A stretch of DNA of 64,000 nucleotides from Aurantibacillus circumpalustris (GTDB lineage: Bacteria > Bacteroidota > Bacteroidia > B-17B0 > Aurantibacillaceae). Position numbers and translations under genes: made by a program. The stretch is taken from the NCBI RefSeq assembly GCF_029625215.1, contig NZ_CP121197.1:3224001-3288000 (forward strand), read 5' to 3'. Shown one piece after another: positions 5,988-48,911 of the stretch. Numbering within the stretch: position 1 is the stretch's first letter; every line of letters begins with the position of its first letter. Below the pieces are notes generated by a model. That model saw only the letters and a list, made by a program, of their open reading frames with translations. It searched no databases and had not been told where the DNA came from.

Positions 5988-7406
5988 TTGGTTCCACTCA
6001 TACAGTATTTTGATTCTCTGGCTAAAAAGCGTAAACAACGCGGTTTTAGTGCCTATTATTGGAACGAAATCTCAAATTACATTAAGTACTTTTCGCATGA
6101 AGACGGCTCCGTTTTAGAAGTCGGTTGCGGAAGTGGTGATCTCTTAGCAAAAGTTTCAGGCAAAAGAAAAGTAGGAATCGATTTTAGCGAAGAACACATC
6201 AATTGGGCCAAAGAAAAACACACTAATGCCGGTATTGAATTTTTGGTAATGGACGCCAATTCTATTCAATTAGATCAAACATTTGATCTAATTGTAGTGA
6301 GTAATCTAATTGGTTACGTGGATGATATTCAAAATGTATTTGAGCAAATTAAAAAATGTTCACATCCAAACACAAAAGTGGTCGTTCAATTTTACAACTC
6401 CATTTGGGAACCGATTATTAAGTTTGCTGAACTCATTGGTTTAAAGCACAAAACACCTACGCAGAATTGGTTAAGCACGCGCGACATCAACAATCTTTTA
6501 TTTGTATCGGGTTTTGATGTATACAGGAATAGTAAACGTCTTATTTTACCTTTCTTTTTCCCCCTACTCTCTTTTATTTTTAATAAGTACTTGGCGAAGT
6601 TTCCAATTTTTAGATTCTTTAGTTTTAATATTTACAGTTTTGCCAAGCCTTTGCCTGAGAGTCACGAAGAAAATTATTCGCAAAAATATTCCACAACGGT
6701 TGTAATACCGGCACGAAACGAAAGTGGGAATATTGAGAACGCTATTCTTAGACTTCCAAAATTTGGTAAACATGTGGAGATTATTTTTATTGAAGGAAAC
6801 AGTACTGATGATACTTGGGAAAAAATTCAAGAGATTCAGAAAAAATATGCTGCTACCCATGATATAAAAATTGGGCAACAAAAAGGAAAAGGAAAAGCAG
6901 ATGCTGTGCGGGAAGGATATAAAATTGCTACAGGAGACATTCTCATGATCTTAGATGCTGATCTAACGGTTCCACCAGAAGATTTACCTAAGTTTTATAA
7001 TGCCATTGCCAGTGGCAAAGGTGATTTTATTAATGGTACCCGCCTTGTTTATCCAATGGATAAAGAAGCGATGCGTTTTTTAAATTATCTTGGTAATCAT
7101 TTTTTCAGTTGGGCATTTACTTGGTTACTCGATCAACGCTTTAAGGACACGCTTTGCGGAACGAAAGTAATGTTTAGAGAAGATTATATTAAACTCACGA
7201 AAAACAGAAAATACTTTGGTGAGTTTGATCCTTTTGGTGATTTTGATCTTTTATTCGGCGCCCATAAATTAAATCTTAAAATTGTGGAAGTTCCCATTCG
7301 TTACCGTGAAAGGACCTACGGCTCAACAAATATTTCCCGATTTAAACACGGCGTTATTCTGTTGCGCATGTGTGCTTTTGCAAGTAGGAAGTGTAAGTTT
7401 ATTTAA
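5988..7406 (+). CDS. Fused class I methyltransferase and GT2 glycosyltransferase
   Basis: This 472-residue protein joins two enzymes. Residues about 30-150 form a methyltransferase (VLEVGCGSGDLLAKV, GIDFSEEHI, LIVVSNLIGYV). A hydrophobic stretch follows near 185-215. From residue 237 a GT2 domain begins (TTVVIPARNESGNI), with the metal-binding DXD motif as LDADLTV near residue 323 and the acceptor-side motif RERTYGSTNI near the end. The start is a TTG: the frame closes at a TAG at 5967 and no ATG or GTG lies before the SAM motif. GT2 enzymes of the polyprenyl-phosphate-sugar kind (DPM-like) would supply the donor used by GT-C enzymes such as the one at 1704, an attractive but unproven link. 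Both domains look intact. Confidence 0.85.
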   Translation: MVPLIQYFDSLAKKRKQRGFSAYYWNEISNYIKYFSHEDGSVLEVGCGSGDLLAKVSGKRKVGIDFSEEHINWAKEKHTNAGIEFLVMDANSIQLDQTFDLIVVSNLIGYVDDIQNVFEQIKKCSHPNTKVVVQFYNSIWEPIIKFAELIGLKHKTPTQNWLSTRDINNLLFVSGFDVYRNSKRLILPFFFPLLSFIFNKYLAKFPIFRFFSFNIYSFAKPLPESHEENYSQKYSTTVVIPARNESGNIENAILRLPKFGKHVEIIFIEGNSTDDTWEKIQEIQKKYAATHDIKIGQQKGKGKADAVREGYKIATGDILMILDADLTVPPEDLPKFYNAIASGKGDFINGTRLVYPMDKEAMRFLNYLGNHFFSWAFTWLLDQRFKDTLCGTKVMFREDYIKLTKNRKYFGEFDPFGDFDLLFGAHKLNLKIVEVPIRYRERTYGSTNISRFKHGVILLRMCAFASRKCKFI

Positions 7407-37190: not shown

Positions 37191-37198
37191 TAGCTTTG
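37191..37198 (+). promoter_or_regulatory. -7 box four bases before the ATT start of the MMPL gene
   Basis: TAGCTTTG matches TAnnTTTG. Bases CAGC follow and then the proposed ATT start at 37203, so the transcript would begin at the start codon. A standard -33 TTG is not seen. Confidence 0.5.
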
Positions 37199-37202
37199 CA
37201 GC

Positions 37203-39449
37203 ATTAAAAATCAAAACACATATTACGGGTTTGTTCTCTTTCTTGTTCTTGCATTCTCGGTTTTTTGTGCAACGCGACTAGTAAACCTTAAATTTAATTA
37301 CGACTTTGAAGCCTTTTTCCCCAATGAGGATAACGAACTTGAGCATTACAACAGTTACCGTGAGACCTTTGAGTACGACAACGAATTTGTATTAATTGCA
37401 CTTGAAAATAAAAAAGGAATTTTTAGAAAAGATTTTCTTTTACGTGTTGATAGCTTAACCAAAGACATTTCTGCTCTTAAATACGTAAAACACATTAACT
37501 CGCCAACAAATTTAAAAAGTTTGGTTCTTGGAGGTTTTGTCCCTATCCAAACACCTTTGCTGCATTTTGAAGATGAAAGTGCGTATTTAAAGGATAGTTC
37601 AGTCATTTATAATTCTCCGTTTTTGGTTGGTTCCTATTTTCCTCAAAACGCCCAATCATTGAGTTTATTTATTAAGACAGACGATGTTCTTACAAAAAAA
37701 CAATGCGATCAACTTGCTGAAAGTTTAGAAAGTAGTATTCAAAAATACCGCTTTGATGGAGTTCACATGGTTGGCCGCATCTTCGCGCAAAACATTTACC
37801 TGGTCAATCTTCAAAAAGAGTTCAGCGTTTTTCTTCTCATTTCTTTTGTGCTTGTATTAATCTTTTTGTGGTTTAGTTTTAGATCTATATACGGTATCAT
37901 AGTTCCGGTAACTATTGTAATCATTGCAATTTTATGGACTCTCGGAATTATGGATCTAATGGGTAAATCAATTGACATTATGTCGGCCATGTTACCAACC
38001 ATGATTTTTGTTGCTGGAATGAGTGATGTAATTCACTTTTTTTCAAAATATTTTGAAGAATTAAGTAAAGGAACTGAGCCACAAAAAGTTTATAAACTCG
38101 TCGTGAAAGAAGTCGGTTTCCCAACCTTCCTAACACTAGTAACAACAGTTGTAGGCTTCTTATCCCTTTTATTTTCAAGCATTCAACCCATTCGTGAATT
38201 CGGAATTTACACCTCGGTTGGTGTCACCATGGCTTTTATTCTCACCTATACCCTACTTCCCGCTCTTTTGCATTTTTTTAAACCCAAAAAATTAATCAAA
38301 ACTCATAGTCAAAATAACCGCAGCAATAATTTACTTCAAAAAGGATTGTTTCTAATTTTTAGAAATCAAAAAACAATTCTACTCGTTACTTCAATTGTTA
38401 TTGTGGTTTCGGTGATTGGCATCAATAAAATAAAAATCAATAATATTTTACTCGAAGATTTGAGTGATAAGGTGAAACTAAAACAAGACTTTAATTTTTT
38501 CGACAAGAATTATAGTGGAGTCAGGCCTTTTGAGTTAAGCGTTACAGTATCCGACACAAATCACTCCGTTTGGGATTATGAAGTAATAACTGAATTATAT
38601 AAGCTGGATGAATTTATTAAAAAGGAGTACAACGCAGGATTTATATTGTCTCCAGCGGGTATGGTAAAAAATATTTACGTTAGTTCAGTTAACGATGCCG
38701 GAGATCGATTTCCTGACAAAGAAGACTACGAGAGCATTGCCAGCTATTTTAAGAAAAACAAAAAAAACAAAGACATCAAACGTTTGGTAAGTGAAGATGG
38801 CAGAAGCACACGAATTAGCGGTAAAATAGCCGATTTGGGAAGTATAAAAATTAACGAACACGACAAAAATTTATTGGCCTACATTGAAAAAAATATTAAT
38901 AAAGATCTCTTTCACTTCGAAATAACAGGAGCAGCACATTTAATTGACCGAAACAACGAATACATGGTTAAAAACATGACTCAAGGTTTTGTTTTTTCAA
39001 TCATCGTCATTGGTCTGTTGACCTTCTTCCTACACCGCAGTTGGCGTATGGTGGTGGTGTTTATCATTCCTAACATTATTCCCTTAATTGTTATTGGCGG
39101 TATTATGGGTTATGCTGGCATTGAGTTAAAGGCGGCCACATCTTTAGTATTTAGTATTGCATTTGGAATAGCAACCGATGATACCATTCATTTTATCTCC
39201 CGTTTAAAGATCGAATTAGCTTACGGTAAAAGTCTGATTTACGCCTTTAAACGTACTTATTTTGAAACTGGCAAGCCCATTGTATTAACCACCTTTATCT
39301 TAATGGGGGGCTTTATGAGTTTAATGATTAGCAATTTTGAAAGCACTTTTTATTTTGGCTTTTTAATTTGTATTACGGTGATTGTGGCACTTATAGCCGA
39401 CCTGTTTTTGTTACCAGTTTTGTTACTGGCGATTTACAGAAAAAAATAA
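37203..39449 (+). CDS. MMPL/RND family transporter (non-canonical ATT start)
   Basis: The protein has about 748 residues, with the RND layout of two repeats of one plus five helices around large extracytoplasmic loops. The conserved N-terminus (MKNQNTYYGFVLFL, then ATRLVNLKFNYDFEAFFP and NEFVLIALE) is in frame, but its region has no ATG, GTG or TTG until codon 107 (37521). A TAG at 37191 closes the frame upstream. The only start giving the family's normal first helix is ATT at 37203. The repeat motifs IMSAMLPTMIFVAGMSDVIHF and SLVFSIAFGIATDDTIHF mark helix 4 of each half with the proton-relay Asp residues. It would export lipids or other hydrophobic molecules with proton drive. The substrate is unknown. 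Confidence 0.85.
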   Translation: MKNQNTYYGFVLFLVLAFSVFCATRLVNLKFNYDFEAFFPNEDNELEHYNSYRETFEYDNEFVLIALENKKGIFRKDFLLRVDSLTKDISALKYVKHINSPTNLKSLVLGGFVPIQTPLLHFEDESAYLKDSSVIYNSPFLVGSYFPQNAQSLSLFIKTDDVLTKKQCDQLAESLESSIQKYRFDGVHMVGRIFAQNIYLVNLQKEFSVFLLISFVLVLIFLWFSFRSIYGIIVPVTIVIIAILWTLGIMDLMGKSIDIMSAMLPTMIFVAGMSDVIHFFSKYFEELSKGTEPQKVYKLVVKEVGFPTFLTLVTTVVGFLSLLFSSIQPIREFGIYTSVGVTMAFILTYTLLPALLHFFKPKKLIKTHSQNNRSNNLLQKGLFLIFRNQKTILLVTSIVIVVSVIGINKIKINNILLEDLSDKVKLKQDFNFFDKNYSGVRPFELSVTVSDTNHSVWDYEVITELYKLDEFIKKEYNAGFILSPAGMVKNIYVSSVNDAGDRFPDKEDYESIASYFKKNKKNKDIKRLVSEDGRSTRISGKIADLGSIKINEHDKNLLAYIEKNINKDLFHFEITGAAHLIDRNNEYMVKNMTQGFVFSIIVIGLLTFFLHRSWRMVVVFIIPNIIPLIVIGGIMGYAGIELKAATSLVFSIAFGIATDDTIHFISRLKIELAYGKSLIYAFKRTYFETGKPIVLTTFILMGGFMSLMISNFESTFYFGFLICITVIVALIADLFLLPVLLLAIYRKK

Positions 39450-39620: not shown

Positions 39621-42600
39621 TTGAAAACATTTTACAAGAAACTCAATAAGGCTTTTTATGGCATTTTCTTGCTATGCCTGTTTAACTCAGCACTCAAAGC
39701 GCAGCCCGCGGGTGCGCTTAATTTCGATGGTATTAACGATAACATCAATTTTACGTATAACGCATCGCCCTGGGTGCTGGGCAACGCCTTCACTATAGAG
39801 ATGTGGATTAAGCTGACTGCATACTCCGATCAGTTGATCGTGCACCCAGGTTACGGCTGTAGTTATTGCCCTGCTTATGCAGTAAGCATAGGAAATGAGA
39901 CAACATGTTATAGTTTAGCGGGTAATACGGGTAAATTAATTTTCCAGGGCTCTGTAGGCAAAATCATGTCCGATGCGGCATTGCCTCTAGGAGTATGGAC
40001 ACATGGGGCAATAACTTACGACGGCAGTGTTTTAAAAATGTATATCAACGGCGTTTTGCAACAGCTTATGCCGCAGGTTACTGGCACTGTAACAACTGGA
40101 ACCAATCCATCTAATCAACACAGAATGTTTGGTGCCGATAACGGTGGCTGTGGCATGAGAAGGCCTTTTAATGGCAGTGTTGATGAGTTCAGAATCTGGA
40201 CTGGGGCTCGCAGCCAGTACGAAATCCAATCGTATATGAATTGTGAAGTTTCTACCAGCCCGGCCAGTTTAACCGCCAATTATCATTTTAATCAAGGTAT
40301 AGTTAACGCAAATAATACCGCAGTAAGTACAGTAACAGACGCCTCTATAAGCGGAATAAGTGGCAGCCTGCTATCCTTTAACCTTACAGGTTTAACTTCT
40401 AATTGGGTTGCCGGTGCTATTGTAAACGGTTTCTCAGTGCCTGTTCCGCCACTGGTTAACATAAACGTTCAGGGAAACGGAACAACCATTAGCGACGGAG
40501 ATATAACACCATCCATAACTGACCATACCGATTTTAACGGTGCCCTTACCCGCACTTTTGTGATCCAGAACACAGCCATAGGCAACTTAAATGTTGTACC
40601 TTATTTAACGGGTCCAGACGCCACTTGTTTTTCAATCACCACCCTTCCTTCTCAAAATATTTCAGGTATTGGAAGTACTTCCTTTGTGGTTACAATGATT
40701 ACCGGCGGTACCAAATCAGCTACTCTAAATATTAATTGTAACGATGGCACCAAACCTATTTATGACTTCGTGATCACAGCAACGTCAAGCAAATATGAAG
40801 CTATAAATTTTGACGGTGTTAATGATTACATTTCTATTCCAAGAACCATTGAATATGATTTTACGATAGAGTTTTGGATGCGAAGTACACAAACAACCAC
40901 CAATGGTAGTGCTCAATGGTACCAAGGTGCAGGCCTGGTCGATGGAGATATAGGTGGTTTTAATGACGATTTTGGAGTAGCTCTTGTTACCAACAAAATT
41001 GGATTTGGGATTGGCAGCGGCGGCGGAGACTTGACAATTTTTTCAACATCAGCTGTAAATACGGGGCAATGGGTACATGTGGCAGCAACCAGGAATAGTA
41101 ATACTGGAGCTATGAATTTGTATATAAATGGCGTGCTAGAGGCGTCTGGCAGTGGCTCATGCTGTTGGAAAGGCGCTCCCGCGAATCTAACACTTGGATC
41201 TTTAACTTACTTGTCGGGTACGGGTTTTTATAATGGAGACATGGACGAGTTGAGACTCTGGAACGTTATTAGAACACAAAACGAAATTCAAAATTATATG
41301 AATAGTGAAATTCCTAATGCAACTGTAGGACTTCTTAATAACTATCATTTCAATGAGGGAACAGCAGCCGGAAATGCTTCCGTTACGACCCTTGTTGACC
41401 TGTCTGGTCAAAATTATTATGGTATTTATAATCACGGTAATCTAAATAATTTTGCATTAACCGGTGCCACCTCTAATTGGATAACGCCAGGAAGAGTAAT
41501 AACTAATTACGCCACACCTGCCTCTTCATTAGCGGTTATTAATCTAAAAGGAAACACCAACGCAATTGCCAATAACGCGAGTACCACGAGTACACTTAAT
41601 TTTACCAACTTCCAATCTAACAGCACCAGAACGTTTGTAATTGAGAATACGGGTACGGGTATTTTGAATATAAATGCAGTGCAGTTAACTGGTGTAAATG
41701 CGTCGGAGTTTTCGGTCACCGTTTTTCCATCAACTACTCTTTCAACAAGCGGAACAACCAGCTTTGTAGTCGCTTTTACACCAACAGCTGGTGGTTTAAG
41801 GAGTGCCAGCGTTCAAATAGCAAGTACTGACAATGCTACTGCTTTATACAGCTTTAAGATAGAAGGAAACGCTCCACCGGCAGATGCCTTAGGTTTTGAC
41901 GGAAGCAATGATTATGCTTCACGGACAATTTTAACAAATAATACTACGAGCGTCACTTTACAAGCAAAAGTATACTGGTATGGTCCAAACACATTTCCGC
42001 AGGTAGTAATGTATAACGGACATTCGAGTATTCGTGGTTCTGGAATTTATGTGATGGCAAACGGTGCTGTACAAGTTCTTTATGGAGGTGTTACTTTTAC
42101 ACCGTATAATTATACGTTAAGTCCCAATACCTGGGTTTCGCTTTCAATGGTAGTAAAGAATGGGCTTGTGGAGTGTTATGTCAACGGCATTTTAGTAAGT
42201 GCCACTAGTGTATCAAATCCTAATACTCCAAATGCTGGCCTTGGTGATTTGTTTACAGTTGGGTCCAACCCTGTTGGTTCTGAAAATTTCAGCGGGAGAA
42301 TAGATGAAGTAAGATACTGGGATAAGGCGCTCACGCAATGCGAAATTCAGACTTATCTTAATTGTGAGATCCCCGGTTCAATGCCGAATTTGCTTGCAAA
42401 CTACCATTTTAACCAAGGCTCGCCAGGCCTGAACAACTCTGGAATTACCAACATCATTGATGACTCAGGAAATAGCAATGATCTGACTCTACTCTATTCC
42501 TCTCTTACAGGCACCTTTGAGAACTGGGTGAGTCCTGGGGCGGTTACCCCAGGATTTACAACAACTTCTGCGCCTTCTTCAAGTATTACCTTAAGCGGAA

Positions 42601-45600
42601 ATAGTAATCCTATTGCGAATAATTCTACCACTGTCACAACTTTAAATAATACAGATTTTGTTTCTGCTGCTTCACGCACATTTGTAATACAAAATTCGAA
42701 TAGCGGAACCTTAAATATCGGCGCACCATATATAACAGGTTTAAATGCTTCTGAGTTTTCACTCACGGTTTTACCTTCTACTACCTTGGCAGCATCAGCT
42801 ACAACTACGTTCGTAGTAGCATTTACACCCACTGTCGGCGGGATAAGAGCCGCTACTGTAAATATTAATAACAATGATTGTAACATACCGATCTTTAATT
42901 TCACGATTAAAGGAAATGCCCCTTTAGCTTCCGCCCTTAATTTTGATGGAGCGGGTGACTATGTAAATTGTGGGACAGATCCTTCTCTCGATATAACGGT
43001 TGGTACCTGGGAAACATGGGTGAATTTAAATGCACTTACTACACAACGGCTCTTTTTTAAAGACCTTGCTGATGCTACCTATACAGGGATGTATGAGATT
43101 TTTTACTTATCAGGTAATTTTTATGCTGCATTAAAAATAGGGCTTACTACCCATGTGATTTTGAGTACGACTATCCCTGTAATAAATACCTGGTATCACG
43201 TGGCGGCTACTTACGACGGAACCGCATTTAAATTGTATATCAATGGTATATTAGAAGCAACTAACCTGGCTCCTTCAGGCCCAATGAATCCCGGAACAGG
43301 TCCGCTAGGGCTCGGAGCTTCAGTGGTTAATCCAACAGCAGTTAACAGCAATTTAAACGCTAAGATGGATGAAACAAGGTTATGGAATGTAGCCCGCACG
43401 CAATGTGAGATCCAGAGCTATATGAACTGTGAGATTCCAACAACAGCGCCCGGACTGGTTATGAATTATCATTTTAATCAGGGTGCTTCAAACCTCGCCA
43501 ACTCTTCTGTAACACTGGTTACGGATGCTGCTGCTTCTAACCAGGGAACTGTTAACGGTTTTGCTTTAACAGGTACAGTATCAAATTGGGTAAGTCCTTC
43601 CATTATTGCGAACGATTTTACGACGAGTGTTGTACCAGGCGCCAGTATTACTGTGACAGGAAACTCTAACCCTATTGCAAATAATTCTACAACAGTAACA
43701 ACTTTAAACTTTACAGATTTTGGTTCAGCTTCAACAGGAACATTTGTGATACAGAATTCAAATACCGGAACTTTAAATATTGGCGTACCCTACTTAACAG
43801 GACTGAATGCTTCTGAGTATTCTATAACCGTTTTACCATCTGCTAGTCTGGCAGCTTCAGCTACTACCTCATTTATAATTGCTTTCACGCCAACAGCAGG
43901 AGGAGTTCGGACGGCAACGGTTAACATCAACAACAACGATTGCAATAAACCTATTTTTAATTTTGTTATAAAGGGTACTGCGGCGGTAGCCTCAGCGCTT
44001 AATTTTGATGGTGTAAATGATTATGTAGATATCCCTTTAAATGGTAATATTCCAGTAGGCTTTACGCCTTATACTATTGAGGCTAAAATTAAACCAAATG
44101 TGCATGGCATGAACGGAATTATTGGCTGGGGAAATTACGGTACATTGAACCAGACAAATGCACTGAGACTTGGGCCTTCCAATACCATAAACAATTATTG
44201 GTACGGTAACGATATTCAGGTAACAGGACCAAATCTTGCAGATGGTAACTGGCATCACCTTGCTGCAACGTTTGACGGAATAGCCAGAAGAATTTACATA
44301 GATGGCATTCTTTACGGACAGGATTTTCCAACCGCACATACAGTGGCCAATAACGCTAACATGCGCATAGGTTCAACCTGTACATCTTGTGGTGGAGAAT
44401 TTTTTAATGGAAGCATAGATGAAGTAAGAGTTTGGAACATAGCCCGCACCGAATGTGAAATTCAATCTTACAAGGACTGTGAGATTCCAACAACAGCATC
44501 GGGACTTGTCTTAAACTATCACTTTAATCAAGGTTCTGCCGGGCTTAACAATACAAGTGTGTCAACAGCAACAGATGCTTCTGCAAGTGCAATTACAGGC
44601 ACACTTACAAATATGAATCTAACCGGATTATCTTCTAACTGGATAAGTCCTGGCTCTGTTGCAAATGGGTATAGTACATCCTTGGTTCCTACAGCCAGTA
44701 TTAGTATTACAGGCAACAGTAATCCAATTTCAAGCAACTCAACAACAGTAACTACTTTAAATCACACCGATTTTGGTTCTGTTGCCACCAGAACATTTGT
44801 TATTACTAATAGCAGCGGCAGTGGTACTTTAAATATTAGCACACCCTATATAACCGGAATTAACGCTTCAGAGTTTTCAGTAACGGTTTTACCTTCAAGT
44901 AGTACTTTAAGTAGTCTAGCAAACACATCTTTCGTTGTTGCCTTTACTCCCACAGGGTCTGGAGTCAGGCAGGCTACGCTTAACATTTCAAACAACGATT
45001 GTACTAAACCTATTTTCAACTTTGCCATTCATGGTGAAGCACCACCAGCAGCTGCTTTGAATTTTGATGGGGTAGACGATTACATTGATCTACCATCCAA
45101 TAACCTACCAAGTGGTAACAATGATTTTACTGTTGAGTTTTGGGTAAAAGTAAAGTCTGTTCAAGCTGGGCACAAGTGGATTACATCTTTTGGTACAGCT
45201 AGTTCTGGTTCACTTCTAACAATTGGATACGACGCATCTAACAGTAATAAAATCAGGATCCATCATTTTGGCCCAGATTTAATCGCAACTACTGCGTCTA
45301 TCCCACAAAATATATGGACGCATGTTGCTGTGAATTACCGAGGTTCTACTTTTTCAAATGAAATTTTCATCAATGGAACTTTTATTGAAACGTTGAATTT
45401 CGGAACGGCACTAACCCTGCCAACCAATCCAGCCTTCCAGATAGGTTCATTTGCGGCAACACCTACCTATTGTCCGCATATGGACTTAGATGAATTAAAA
45501 GTGTGGAACCGTGCATTATGCGCACCCGAAATTCAAAACAATATGAATTGTGAAATTGTTACTACAGGTATGGGACTGGTTGCGAACTACCATTTTAATC

Positions 45601-48600
45601 AAGGTAATATTGGTGTTAATAATTCGAGTATAAACACGTTAACCGATTTTAGTGGAAGCTTAAATACCGGAACCTTAATAAATACTGCACTCACTAGCAC
45701 AATTTCCAATTGGGTGGCACCAGGGGCTGTAACTTCCGGCTCTTCTTGCGGTGTTTACCTTGATCCGGAAATTAACCTAATGGGTAATGGAATTAGTATT
45801 CCCGACGGTAATGCAAGTTCTTCAACCGCCAATAATACTGATTTCGGTGCTGTATGTATCAACACCGTGGTAGTACGAACATTCAGTATCCAAAATTTAG
45901 GTGCTTCTCCTCTAACGGTTAGCTCAATTACAATGAGTGGTTCAAGTGCTACTTCGTTTAGTGTTGGACCATTATCTCCTGTATCACCTATAGCCGTTGG
46001 GAGTTCAGCCACATTCGCTGTAACCTTTACCACCACAACTAGCGGCGTTAAAACAGCTACTCTTAATATCTCCAGCAATGATTGTGACGAAGCTCTTTAT
46101 GATGTGTTGCTAACCGGAACCTGCAACGCTCTTCCTGTTGTTTCTGCAAACACTAGTAACTCAGTTATCTGTAATACAGCTAGTACAAGTGTATTTGGTA
46201 GTGGAGCACATACTTATACGTGGACAGGCACTATACCCGCAGTTAATACTATTCCATTTTCACCTTCAACAACCACAAACTACACAGTAGCAGGTACAAA
46301 TACCTTAACAGGATGCAGAAGCACTAATATTGCTGTAACAACCATAACGGTTAATAGCTTGCCGATAGTGGCTGTCTCAACACTTAGTGGTTCTATTTGT
46401 CTTGGTAACACAACCACTCTTACTGCAACTAATGCGGATACTTACACCTGGAGTCCCGGTTCCTTGAATGGTACAAGCATAACCCCTTCACCGGTTTTAA
46501 CCACAACCTACTCAGTGATAGGTACGAATACACTCACAGGATGCTCAAGCACTAACACAGCTGCTCAAACCATTACTGTGAATGCTATTCCTTCGGTAAC
46601 AGCCACAACACCCAACGCAGCTATTTGCGCCGGAGCCCCGGCAACATTAATTGCCAGTGGAGCAAGCAGCTATACCTGGCTTCCGGGTCCGGTTATTGGA
46701 ACTACCGTTAATCCTATCCCCGCAGGAACGATAACCTACAGTTTAACCGGAACAAGTACTGCAGGTTGTACAAGCACTAATATTGCTAATCAGCTTATTA
46801 CAGTAAATCTGTTACCAACCGTTACTATCAATCCTCTTATTTCGGTTATTTGTTTAGGTGGAACTGCAAGTTTGGTAGCCACTGGTGCAAATACCTACAC
46901 ATGGGCACCGGGTGGACCTGGCACTGCTACGTTAACGCCTTCTCCACCAAGTAATACTGGATACACCTTATCAGGTAGTTCTGCAGCAGGGTGCACAAAC
47001 ACAAACATAGCCGTTCAAATAGTAACGGTTAACGCCTTACCGTCTGTAACAGCAAGTACCAGTAATTCTGTCATCTGTAACAGCGGCACTACTTCACTCA
47101 TTGGTTTAGGCGCAGATACCTTTACCTGGAATCCATTTATTGCAAACGCTACACCTTTCTCACCTTCAGCCACAACGATCTATACCTTAAGTGGATCCTA
47201 TACACTAACAGGTTGCACTAGCACAAACCTTGCAGTACAAACCATTAGTGTAAATTCAAATCCTACGGTTGGGTTAATGGTAATAAATCCTACCGTTTGT
47301 GAAGGAGATTCACCTACCTTAACGGCAAATGGTGCTATTAGTTATACTTGGGAACCTGGTACTTTAACAACTACAGTTATTACCCCTACTCCAGTAATTA
47401 CTACAGTATACAGCCTAACCGGTTCAAGTGCGGCAGGGTGTTTAAGTTCAAACACAGCAACACAACCAATTACTGTGAACCCACTACCATTGGTAACTGC
47501 AAATGCTTCTACTCTTTTGGTTTGTTCAGGAAGCAGTGTTTCACTTTTTGGTAGTGGTGCAACTACGTATACATGGTCAGGTAGTGTGCTTAATAATATT
47601 AGCTTTACACCAAGTGCATCGGGCTCATACACTGTTACCGGTACTGATGTGAACCTCTGTCAAAATACTGCAACAATTTCTTTTACGGTAGATCCTGTAC
47701 CCTCTGTTTCTGCTAACATTACATCAACAACCATTTGCAACGGACAGTCTTTAACCCTCAGTGGAAATGGAGCTACTACTTATTCGTGGACTGGTGGAAT
47801 AACCGACGGCATATCTTTTACTCCTATAACAACGGGGAACTATACATTAAGCGGCTTTAGCACAGCAGGTTGTAGCAATACCAACGTTGTTGTTGCATCA
47901 GTGAGTATTAATCCTTTACCCGCCGTTACAGCTAATGCAAATACAACCGTTATTTGTTTTGGAGATTTAGCAACCCTCACTGGTAGCGGAGCTGTCAATT
48001 ACACTTGGACAGGAGGAGTGTCCAACAACACTCCCTTTACTCCAACAACAACTAACTCGTACACCGTGTTTGGCGAAGATTCCAATACATGTTCTAATAG
48101 TGCAACGATAGATATAATTGTTAATCCACTTCCTCTTTTAACCATTGTAAGCACAGCAACAAGAAGTTGCGAAGCGGATTCGGTGCAACTTACCGCAAGT
48201 GGTGCCAGTAGCTATACATGGACTTTAAATCAAACGAATCAAACCTATATTGTAACGCCAACAATTTCTACAACTTATACTGTAATTGGCAGAGATAATA
48301 ATGGTTGTGTAAATTCAGAAGTATACACCCAGTCTGTAACACCTTGCATCGGAACTTTAACAGCCATTGCAAGTCAAACAAACTTAAGTTGTAGTGATAA
48401 AAAAGATGGTCAAATTTTAATTACCACAACTAACTCCTACTCAAATAGTCAAATAACTTATATTTGGTCACCAGCTACCCTTTGCCCTTTAACCAACTGC
48501 AACCATTTAGAAAATTTAGGCTCGGGAACAGTGAACTTAATTGTTAAGGTAACTTATACGCTTAACAATATTCTCGTAAAAGTAGATTCATTGGTTATTA

Positions 48601-48911
48601 ATCCTATTCATATTCTTGACGAAAATGGACCATGCATTATTAAAGCTTATAGTGGCTTTTCACCGAACGGTGATGGTATAAATGATATTTGGCAAATAGA
48701 TAACATTACCCAATTCCCTTTAAATAAGGTAACCGTATTTAACCGATGGGGACAAGAAGTGTACGAGGTGACTGGCTACGATAATGCAGAAAAATCATGG
48801 CCTGCAGCTGGAGAAGAATCAAAACTAAGTTCAAATACCTACTTTTATCTCATAGATTTAGGCGATGGAAGCAAATTAATAAAAGGATGGGTTGAAGTAA
48901 CTAAAAACTAA
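39621..48911 (+). CDS. Giant T9SS type B surface protein: 6 LamG/anchor-D modules and 10 Ig-like repeats
   Basis: The 3096-residue protein starts at a TTG (frame closed by TAG at 39615; an ATT at 39618 is the other option) and has a signal peptide ending near SALKAQP. Six compound modules of about 355 residues follow. Each is a LamG domain (opening like ALNFDGVNDYV, with WxHVAxTYDG, YINGVL, DEVRIWNVARTQCEIQ, NCEIPTTAxGL and YHFNQG) and a choice-of-anchor-D/ASH Ig-like domain (GNSNPIANNST, TRTFVIQN, FVVAFTPT, NNDC). Ten Ig-like repeats of about 75 residues (SVIC, LTASGASSYTW, GCxSTN) and a SprB-like part lead to the type B sorting domain (FSPNGDGINDIW, VFNRWGQEVYEVTGYDN). It should reach the surface through the T9SS and act as an extended adhesin or gliding-type filament. 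Ligands are unknown. Confidence 0.88.
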   Translation: MKTFYKKLNKAFYGIFLLCLFNSALKAQPAGALNFDGINDNINFTYNASPWVLGNAFTIEMWIKLTAYSDQLIVHPGYGCSYCPAYAVSIGNETTCYSLAGNTGKLIFQGSVGKIMSDAALPLGVWTHGAITYDGSVLKMYINGVLQQLMPQVTGTVTTGTNPSNQHRMFGADNGGCGMRRPFNGSVDEFRIWTGARSQYEIQSYMNCEVSTSPASLTANYHFNQGIVNANNTAVSTVTDASISGISGSLLSFNLTGLTSNWVAGAIVNGFSVPVPPLVNINVQGNGTTISDGDITPSITDHTDFNGALTRTFVIQNTAIGNLNVVPYLTGPDATCFSITTLPSQNISGIGSTSFVVTMITGGTKSATLNINCNDGTKPIYDFVITATSSKYEAINFDGVNDYISIPRTIEYDFTIEFWMRSTQTTTNGSAQWYQGAGLVDGDIGGFNDDFGVALVTNKIGFGIGSGGGDLTIFSTSAVNTGQWVHVAATRNSNTGAMNLYINGVLEASGSGSCCWKGAPANLTLGSLTYLSGTGFYNGDMDELRLWNVIRTQNEIQNYMNSEIPNATVGLLNNYHFNEGTAAGNASVTTLVDLSGQNYYGIYNHGNLNNFALTGATSNWITPGRVITNYATPASSLAVINLKGNTNAIANNASTTSTLNFTNFQSNSTRTFVIENTGTGILNINAVQLTGVNASEFSVTVFPSTTLSTSGTTSFVVAFTPTAGGLRSASVQIASTDNATALYSFKIEGNAPPADALGFDGSNDYASRTILTNNTTSVTLQAKVYWYGPNTFPQVVMYNGHSSIRGSGIYVMANGAVQVLYGGVTFTPYNYTLSPNTWVSLSMVVKNGLVECYVNGILVSATSVSNPNTPNAGLGDLFTVGSNPVGSENFSGRIDEVRYWDKALTQCEIQTYLNCEIPGSMPNLLANYHFNQGSPGLNNSGITNIIDDSGNSNDLTLLYSSLTGTFENWVSPGAVTPGFTTTSAPSSSITLSGNSNPIANNSTTVTTLNNTDFVSAASRTFVIQNSNSGTLNIGAPYITGLNASEFSLTVLPSTTLAASATTTFVVAFTPTVGGIRAATVNINNNDCNIPIFNFTIKGNAPLASALNFDGAGDYVNCGTDPSLDITVGTWETWVNLNALTTQRLFFKDLADATYTGMYEIFYLSGNFYAALKIGLTTHVILSTTIPVINTWYHVAATYDGTAFKLYINGILEATNLAPSGPMNPGTGPLGLGASVVNPTAVNSNLNAKMDETRLWNVARTQCEIQSYMNCEIPTTAPGLVMNYHFNQGASNLANSSVTLVTDAAASNQGTVNGFALTGTVSNWVSPSIIANDFTTSVVPGASITVTGNSNPIANNSTTVTTLNFTDFGSASTGTFVIQNSNTGTLNIGVPYLTGLNASEYSITVLPSASLAASATTSFIIAFTPTAGGVRTATVNINNNDCNKPIFNFVIKGTAAVASALNFDGVNDYVDIPLNGNIPVGFTPYTIEAKIKPNVHGMNGIIGWGNYGTLNQTNALRLGPSNTINNYWYGNDIQVTGPNLADGNWHHLAATFDGIARRIYIDGILYGQDFPTAHTVANNANMRIGSTCTSCGGEFFNGSIDEVRVWNIARTECEIQSYKDCEIPTTASGLVLNYHFNQGSAGLNNTSVSTATDASASAITGTLTNMNLTGLSSNWISPGSVANGYSTSLVPTASISITGNSNPISSNSTTVTTLNHTDFGSVATRTFVITNSSGSGTLNISTPYITGINASEFSVTVLPSSSTLSSLANTSFVVAFTPTGSGVRQATLNISNNDCTKPIFNFAIHGEAPPAAALNFDGVDDYIDLPSNNLPSGNNDFTVEFWVKVKSVQAGHKWITSFGTASSGSLLTIGYDASNSNKIRIHHFGPDLIATTASIPQNIWTHVAVNYRGSTFSNEIFINGTFIETLNFGTALTLPTNPAFQIGSFAATPTYCPHMDLDELKVWNRALCAPEIQNNMNCEIVTTGMGLVANYHFNQGNIGVNNSSINTLTDFSGSLNTGTLINTALTSTISNWVAPGAVTSGSSCGVYLDPEINLMGNGISIPDGNASSSTANNTDFGAVCINTVVVRTFSIQNLGASPLTVSSITMSGSSATSFSVGPLSPVSPIAVGSSATFAVTFTTTTSGVKTATLNISSNDCDEALYDVLLTGTCNALPVVSANTSNSVICNTASTSVFGSGAHTYTWTGTIPAVNTIPFSPSTTTNYTVAGTNTLTGCRSTNIAVTTITVNSLPIVAVSTLSGSICLGNTTTLTATNADTYTWSPGSLNGTSITPSPVLTTTYSVIGTNTLTGCSSTNTAAQTITVNAIPSVTATTPNAAICAGAPATLIASGASSYTWLPGPVIGTTVNPIPAGTITYSLTGTSTAGCTSTNIANQLITVNLLPTVTINPLISVICLGGTASLVATGANTYTWAPGGPGTATLTPSPPSNTGYTLSGSSAAGCTNTNIAVQIVTVNALPSVTASTSNSVICNSGTTSLIGLGADTFTWNPFIANATPFSPSATTIYTLSGSYTLTGCTSTNLAVQTISVNSNPTVGLMVINPTVCEGDSPTLTANGAISYTWEPGTLTTTVITPTPVITTVYSLTGSSAAGCLSSNTATQPITVNPLPLVTANASTLLVCSGSSVSLFGSGATTYTWSGSVLNNISFTPSASGSYTVTGTDVNLCQNTATISFTVDPVPSVSANITSTTICNGQSLTLSGNGATTYSWTGGITDGISFTPITTGNYTLSGFSTAGCSNTNVVVASVSINPLPAVTANANTTVICFGDLATLTGSGAVNYTWTGGVSNNTPFTPTTTNSYTVFGEDSNTCSNSATIDIIVNPLPLLTIVSTATRSCEADSVQLTASGASSYTWTLNQTNQTYIVTPTISTTYTVIGRDNNGCVNSEVYTQSVTPCIGTLTAIASQTNLSCSDKKDGQILITTTNSYSNSQITYIWSPATLCPLTNCNHLENLGSGTVNLIVKVTYTLNNILVKVDSLVINPIHILDENGPCIIKAYSGFSPNGDGINDIWQIDNITQFPLNKVTVFNRWGQEVYEVTGYDNAEKSWPAAGEESKLSSNTYFYLIDLGDGSKLIKGWVEVTKN
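39711..46130 (+). repeat. Six tandem LamG plus anchor-D modules in the first giant gene
   Basis: LamG parts begin near 39711, 40792, 41882, 42931, 43990 and 45051; anchor-D/ASH parts begin near 40444, 41527, 42577, 43640, 44692 and 45762. The period is 1.05-1.09 kb. The sixth module differs: its first Cys block is RALCAPEIQNNMNCEI and its ASH part has an insertion (VRTFSIQN, then PLSPVSPIAVG). YHFN is present in all six. Confidence 0.85.
46131..48340 (+). repeat. Ten tandem Ig-like repeats in the first giant gene
   Basis: Units start near 46131, 46357, 46587, 46813, 47038, 47263, 47485, 47698, 47917 and 48131, about 215-230 bp each. Each has a Pro-hydrophobic opening, a Cys at about residue 15 (SVIC), a GAxxYTW core and, in most, a second Cys in GCxSTN. 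They would form a stalk next to the sorting domain. Confidence 0.8.

Follow-up and report, generated by a model that had tools for sequence, protein, structure and literature searches.

A conserved AUH start codon on a predicted leaderless mRNA of an MMPL/RND-family exporter in one clade of Bacteroidota

Known leaderless mRNAs start with AUG, and less often with GUG or UUG. They account for about 4-5% of mRNAs in the Bacteroidota studied so far, leaderless mRNAs making up 5.5% in F. psychrophilum, and 5' UTRs shorter than 10 nt ~3.7% in B. thetaiotaomicron (PMC9723704, PMC7366714). The -7 box of Bacteroidota sigma-A, TAnnTTTG, spans positions -12 to -5 (PMC9723704; see PMC7366714). In E. coli, leaderless mRNAs were reported to require AUG (PMC5622118; PMC9031893). 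infC and pcnB have been recorded as AUU-start genes (PMC4245954). Only one AUG-to-AUU switch was counted among 61,358 ancestral AUG starts (PMC5622118), and AUU starts must therefore be very rare. The exporter gene described here resembles leaderless bacterial mRNAs in that a promoter box lies directly ahead of its start codon, but differs from them in carrying AUH (AUU, AUC or AUA) in 38 orthologs, with AUG only in outgroups. Like infC and pcnB of E. coli it is kept on AUU, but it differs from these genes in using AUC and AUA as well, and in encoding an exporter. AUU starts being known mainly from infC and pcnB, such a clade runs counter to expectation. So does the fact that 38 species have retained AUH on an mRNA predicted to be leaderless, given the AUG requirement reported for E. 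coli; laboratory work in that organism suggests that the arrangement should hardly work. No report of leaderless AUH starts was found in the openly licensed literature searched.

The window analysed is a stretch of 64,000 nucleotides from a single-contig 4.6-Mb genome. Re-reading of the sequence confirmed that, as claimed in a first-pass annotation, the transporter frame at 37191-39449 is closed upstream by the TAG at 37191-37193 and holds no ATG, GTG or TTG between this stop and the TTG at 37521 (codon 107); the first in-frame ATG is codon 189. The codons following the TAG are CTT TGC AGC ATT(37203) AAA AAT CAA AAC ACA TAT TAC. The 106 codons ahead of the TTG, earlier read as an RND N-terminus, comprise the first helix, which begins near codon 8, and ~80 codons of the next domain. 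In this search the product scored 116.9 bits against PF03176 (MMPL), above the gathering score of 20.5, and thus shares MMPL domains with MMPL/RND exporters (HAE3, HpnN-like). The best long model was TIGR00921 (HAE3) with 214.4 bits, under the NCBIfam cut-off of 351.9, and the score of 116.9 against the HpnN model was likewise under its cut-off of 751.85. In these scores the protein differs from both HAE3 and HpnN. The features considered are collected in Table 1.

Table 1. Features of the exporter locus and of other genes discussed in the text. Locations without a prefix are positions in the window.
Feature	Location	Strand	Remarks
-7 box TAGCTTTG (consensus TAnnTTTG)	37191..37198	+	its TAG (37191-37193) is also the in-frame stop
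Predicted transcript start (+1)	37203	+	deduced from the box spanning -12 to -5 (PMC9723704)
Start codon ATT	37203..37205	+	same column in 38 orthologs: ATC 18, ATT 16, ATA 4, ATG 0
MMPL/RND-family exporter	37203..39449	+	748 aa (37203-39446), stop 39447-39449
ACA TAT, codons 6-7	37218..37223	+	TAT in 33/36 orthologs
TTG, first canonical in-frame start	37521..37523	+	start-list gene caller begins here; not conserved in orthologs
infC	L096:17544-18179 (G000:C1:4417544-)	-	no ATG/GTG/TTG start; relatives L207-L236, L397-L419
ABC ATPase	L268:12019-13035	-	start column ATT 15, ATC 11, ATA 1, ATG 3; relatives L307-L336
bamD	L253:2949-3815	+	CTG 20/30, TTG 8/30; relatives L277-L306
porT/sprT (T9SS)	L262:4372-5148	-	CTG 15, GTG 2, TTG 2 of 19 species; relatives L337-L356
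TonB-dependent receptor	L380:1661-4150	+	no ATG/GTG/TTG for 86 codons; window's genome only
T9SS-sorted protein	L357:5985-7013	+	ATA at 6024; window's genome only
prfB	L244:8657-9703	-	known programmed frameshift; recovered by the screen, serving as control

Orthologs were taken from genus, family and Bacteroidota MAG records, and were present in the 40 genomes of the genus that were searched, with distant paralogs included in the count; after removal of duplicates, 38 distinct sequences from many independent assemblies remained. Alignment of orthologs, which had been proposed as a check, placed ATH at the column of the ATT in all 38 sequences and ATG in none. Outgroups do have ATG: L034 (g5), L049 (g10) and L069 (g4) carry it exactly at this column, in most of g10 it lies one codon upstream, and elsewhere it is a few codons off. 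Base identity in the AUH clade was ~0.3 upstream except at the box, and rose to 1.00/1.00/0.40 at the ATH codon, after which the changes were mainly synonymous or conservative (AAT/AAC, CAA/CAG, AAA/AAG/AGA). Coding-type conservation thus begins exactly at the AUH codon, which supports the earlier proposal of AUU as the start. In-frame stops were found two codons upstream of AUH in L026, L035 and L038, and three to four codons upstream in L014, L003 and L027; therefore no other conserved codon remains as a start.

These data bear on two other readings of the locus, both rejected on the evidence of the orthologs. Translation might begin upstream or in another frame and enter the exporter frame by frameshifting or recoding, and the window's genome does have one such gene, prfB. 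This is very improbable here, because the in-frame stops lie only two to four codons upstream, the upstream sequence is unconserved save for the -7 box, the orthologs share neither an upstream start nor a slippery site, and the outgroups carry ATG at the ATT column; a frameshifted upstream start was among the outcomes that the first-pass annotation had named as contrary to its view. Alternatively, the exporter could be a truncated protein starting at TTG 37521, or the locus a decayed gene or an assembly error. A standard start list does call the gene as 37521-39449 and loses the first helix, as had been anticipated. But codons 1-106 are conserved, with invariant residues from F31 onward, the TTG is not, and ATH is common to 38 independent sequences, none of which has ATG at the column of 37203, the outcome that would have pointed to an assembly error, so that this reading has a negligible probability.

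A maximum-likelihood tree of the proteins placed the AUH rows, together with two UUG rows, in one clade of 38 with an SH-aLRT support of 99, and all members of its sister clade of 17 had ATG. The two UUG rows are the divergent genus members G014 and G027, which have no AUH and apparently start two codons upstream, at a TTG preceded by a TATCTTTA box. In these comparisons the AUH start is confined to one clade of one family, and the AUH-start exporters belong to 38 related species in a group of uncultured Bacteroidota. Parsimony indicated that the third base of the AUH start changed at least 10 times inside the clade. One AUG to AUH change, kept since, is the simplest history. Fully conserved four-fold columns also lacked G in 4 of 64 cases, or in 3 of 22 among those of similar variability, and the absence of ATG alone is thus only suggestive of selection against AUG.

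A further observation was made at codons 6 and 7. Codon 6 had A as its third base (37220) in 36/36 orthologs despite variation of the residue (T, S, I, K, R), and this was the only such fixed third base among 244 variable columns. Counted from the predicted 5' end, this base-level constraint at codons 6-7 lies at about 18-21 nt.

The gene 5' of the exporter, encoding L-glutamate gamma-semialdehyde dehydrogenase, is in divergent orientation, so the exporter needs its own promoter. The earlier statement that the ATT is preceded by TAGCTTTG and four bases was correct, the spacer between box and ATT being CAGC. From the published box position of -12 to -5 (PMC9723704), it follows that +1 would be the A of the ATT in the window, and this spacing supports the leaderless reading given earlier. 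Boxes were scored out of 6 at gaps of 4-9 nt in the 37 orthologs with enough upstream sequence, and control windows were compared. Boxes of at least 5/6 were present in 33/37 orthologs as against 8.5% of control windows; they were perfect in 22/37 (control, 0.5%) and of exactly 5/6 in 11/37 (control, 8.0%). The gaps of 4-9 nt in the relatives predict leaders of 0-5 nt. The box was poor (score 2-4 of 6) in 4/37, one of which, L134, has a visible TTAATTTTG at a different spacing. In the outgroup L034 the identical box arrangement is followed by ATG. No GGAGG-like Shine-Dalgarno element was found ahead of 37203. An Rfam search at the exporter start gave no match, folding of the first 80 nt was no better than that of shuffles (z -0.01), and a sigma-70 consensus scan, the consensus of which is not expected to fit Bacteroidota, found nothing. 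In a 464-kb sample of the window's genome, TAnnTTTG boxes lay 3-8 nt ahead of ATG in 11/288 genes, which is in line with the leaderless fractions of F. psychrophilum and B. thetaiotaomicron cited above.

By this comparative evidence it is quite probable that the 5' end of the exporter mRNA lies at or near the AUH, i.e. that the mRNA is leaderless. The AUH start might also be true while an ordinary leader is supplied from a promoter farther upstream, in which case the TAnnTTTG box would be a secondary promoter or of no significance. In the same genomes, infC and the ABC ATPase gene do have AUH behind a leader, and the few exporter orthologs with a poor box could be read in this way. But such a leader is unlikely for the exporter, given the excess of perfect boxes over control windows, the lack of a Shine-Dalgarno element ahead of its AUH, and the divergent upstream gene, which leaves no read-through operon to supply the leader. 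The start column, the clade-wide AUH, the box and its spacing are themselves shown by comparison of sequences.

With regard to decoding, one initiator-type tRNA was found among the tRNAs read (L195), with anticodon CAU, a U1:U72 mismatch and three G-C pairs in the anticodon stem, and the Ile(GAU) tRNA was of elongator type. A second initiator tRNA was considered and rejected, the only initiator-type tRNA among those read having the CAU anticodon. The AUH start is most simply explained by fMet-tRNA initiating with a mismatch at the third base, and it is highly probable that the first residue of the exporter would be fMet. Alternatively, Ile-tRNA could initiate on the leaderless mRNA to give isoleucine as first residue, as the column holds each of the three Ile codons and nothing else in the 38 orthologs. 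However, the start codons in the 36 long rows (ATC 17, ATT 15, ATA 4) were unlike the invariant internal Ile columns (ATT 204, ATA 55, ATC 29), and an ordinary internal Ile is therefore disfavoured. The restriction to AUH also has a simple mutational cause, since AUH reaches NUG codons only via AUG. Moreover, UUG is apparently the start codon in the two divergent members of the clade, L034 has ATG behind the same box, and among the tRNAs read none of initiator type carried an Ile anticodon. Initiation with isoleucine is accordingly very doubtful.

The probable explanation, judged from sequence, is a leaderless mRNA with an AUH start that is read by the CAU initiator tRNA, the weak codon being kept for low output. 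A sigma-A type promoter with its -7 box directly ahead of the coding sequence would drive the exporter, and the mRNA would begin at the start codon in the window's genome and within ~5 nt of it in relatives. The ordinary initiator tRNA would read AUU, AUC or AUA via the first two bases, giving an N-terminal fMet. The weak start codon would hold the exporter at low output, and this may well be why it was kept; we give poor initiation about an even chance of being the selected trait. In a reconstituted system, fMet incorporation at AUU by the CAU anticodon was lowered by IF3 (PMC10158994), and some leaderless mRNAs were inhibited by high IF3 (PMC9031893). Because IF3 discriminates against mismatches at the third base and holds back leaderless mRNAs, a shortage of IF3 may raise exporter output, although such gating by IF3 is proposed only tentatively. 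The clade is a natural system for asking how and why the ribosome picks an AUH start.

Other genes without AUG were sought by screening 880 + 483 genes on 2.06 Mb of sequence, or 45% of the genome, for frames that are already coding ahead of their first ATG, GTG or TTG. A gene escapes this screen if a canonical start follows within fewer than 15 codons, and the yield is therefore a lower bound. The exporter was the only leaderless AUH gene found. infC, the ABC ATPase gene, bamD and porT also lacked an AUG start in the window's genome, and this was conserved across the genus. The clade-wide occurrence of AUU, AUC and AUA at the exporter start, and the existence of these further AUG-less genes, go beyond the first-pass annotation. 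Standard start lists would misplace the starts of BamD, PorT, IF3 and the ABC ATPase genus-wide, besides dropping the first helix of the exporter.

In infC, a Shine-Dalgarno element was followed by AUC or AUU in 27/27 pattern-matched loci; the conserved GCGGAGG/ACGGAGG, 5 nt and then AUC or AUU recurred across the genus and family, and Shine-Dalgarno elements with AUH were also seen in relatives outside the genus. The infC of the exporter's own family thus has an AUU/AUC start behind a Shine-Dalgarno element, from which the exporter, without such an element and predicted to be leaderless, differs. infC is a rare Shine-Dalgarno-led gene in Bacteroidota. For the ABC ATPase gene, an in-frame stop was found close upstream of the start column in several species. 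The bamD CTG/TTG sits directly behind a TAnnTTTG-like box, and bamD is a predicted leaderless CUG/UUG start that is conserved in the genus. The porT mRNA apparently has a leader. The TonB-dependent receptor likely starts at the CTG of CTG AAA AAA at 1706, ahead of its signal peptide, and the T9SS-sorted protein likely at its ATA, which shares bases with the stop codon of the gene before it (ATAA replacing the usual ATGA).

It could be imagined that the clade keeps a small gene set on deliberately poor starts, some of them leaderless, as a start-codon-defined regulon for envelope building, with AUH for the RND exporter, the ABC ATPase and infC, and CUG/UUG for bamD, porT and perhaps the TonB receptor. 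Their outputs could then be tied via the level of IF3 or of free 70S ribosomes. We regard this regulon as a rather doubtful prospect.

The next gene downstream of the exporter, at 39621-48911 (+) in the window, encodes a repeat protein of 3096 aa that apparently carries a signal peptide, and seemingly starts with TTG AAA ACA.
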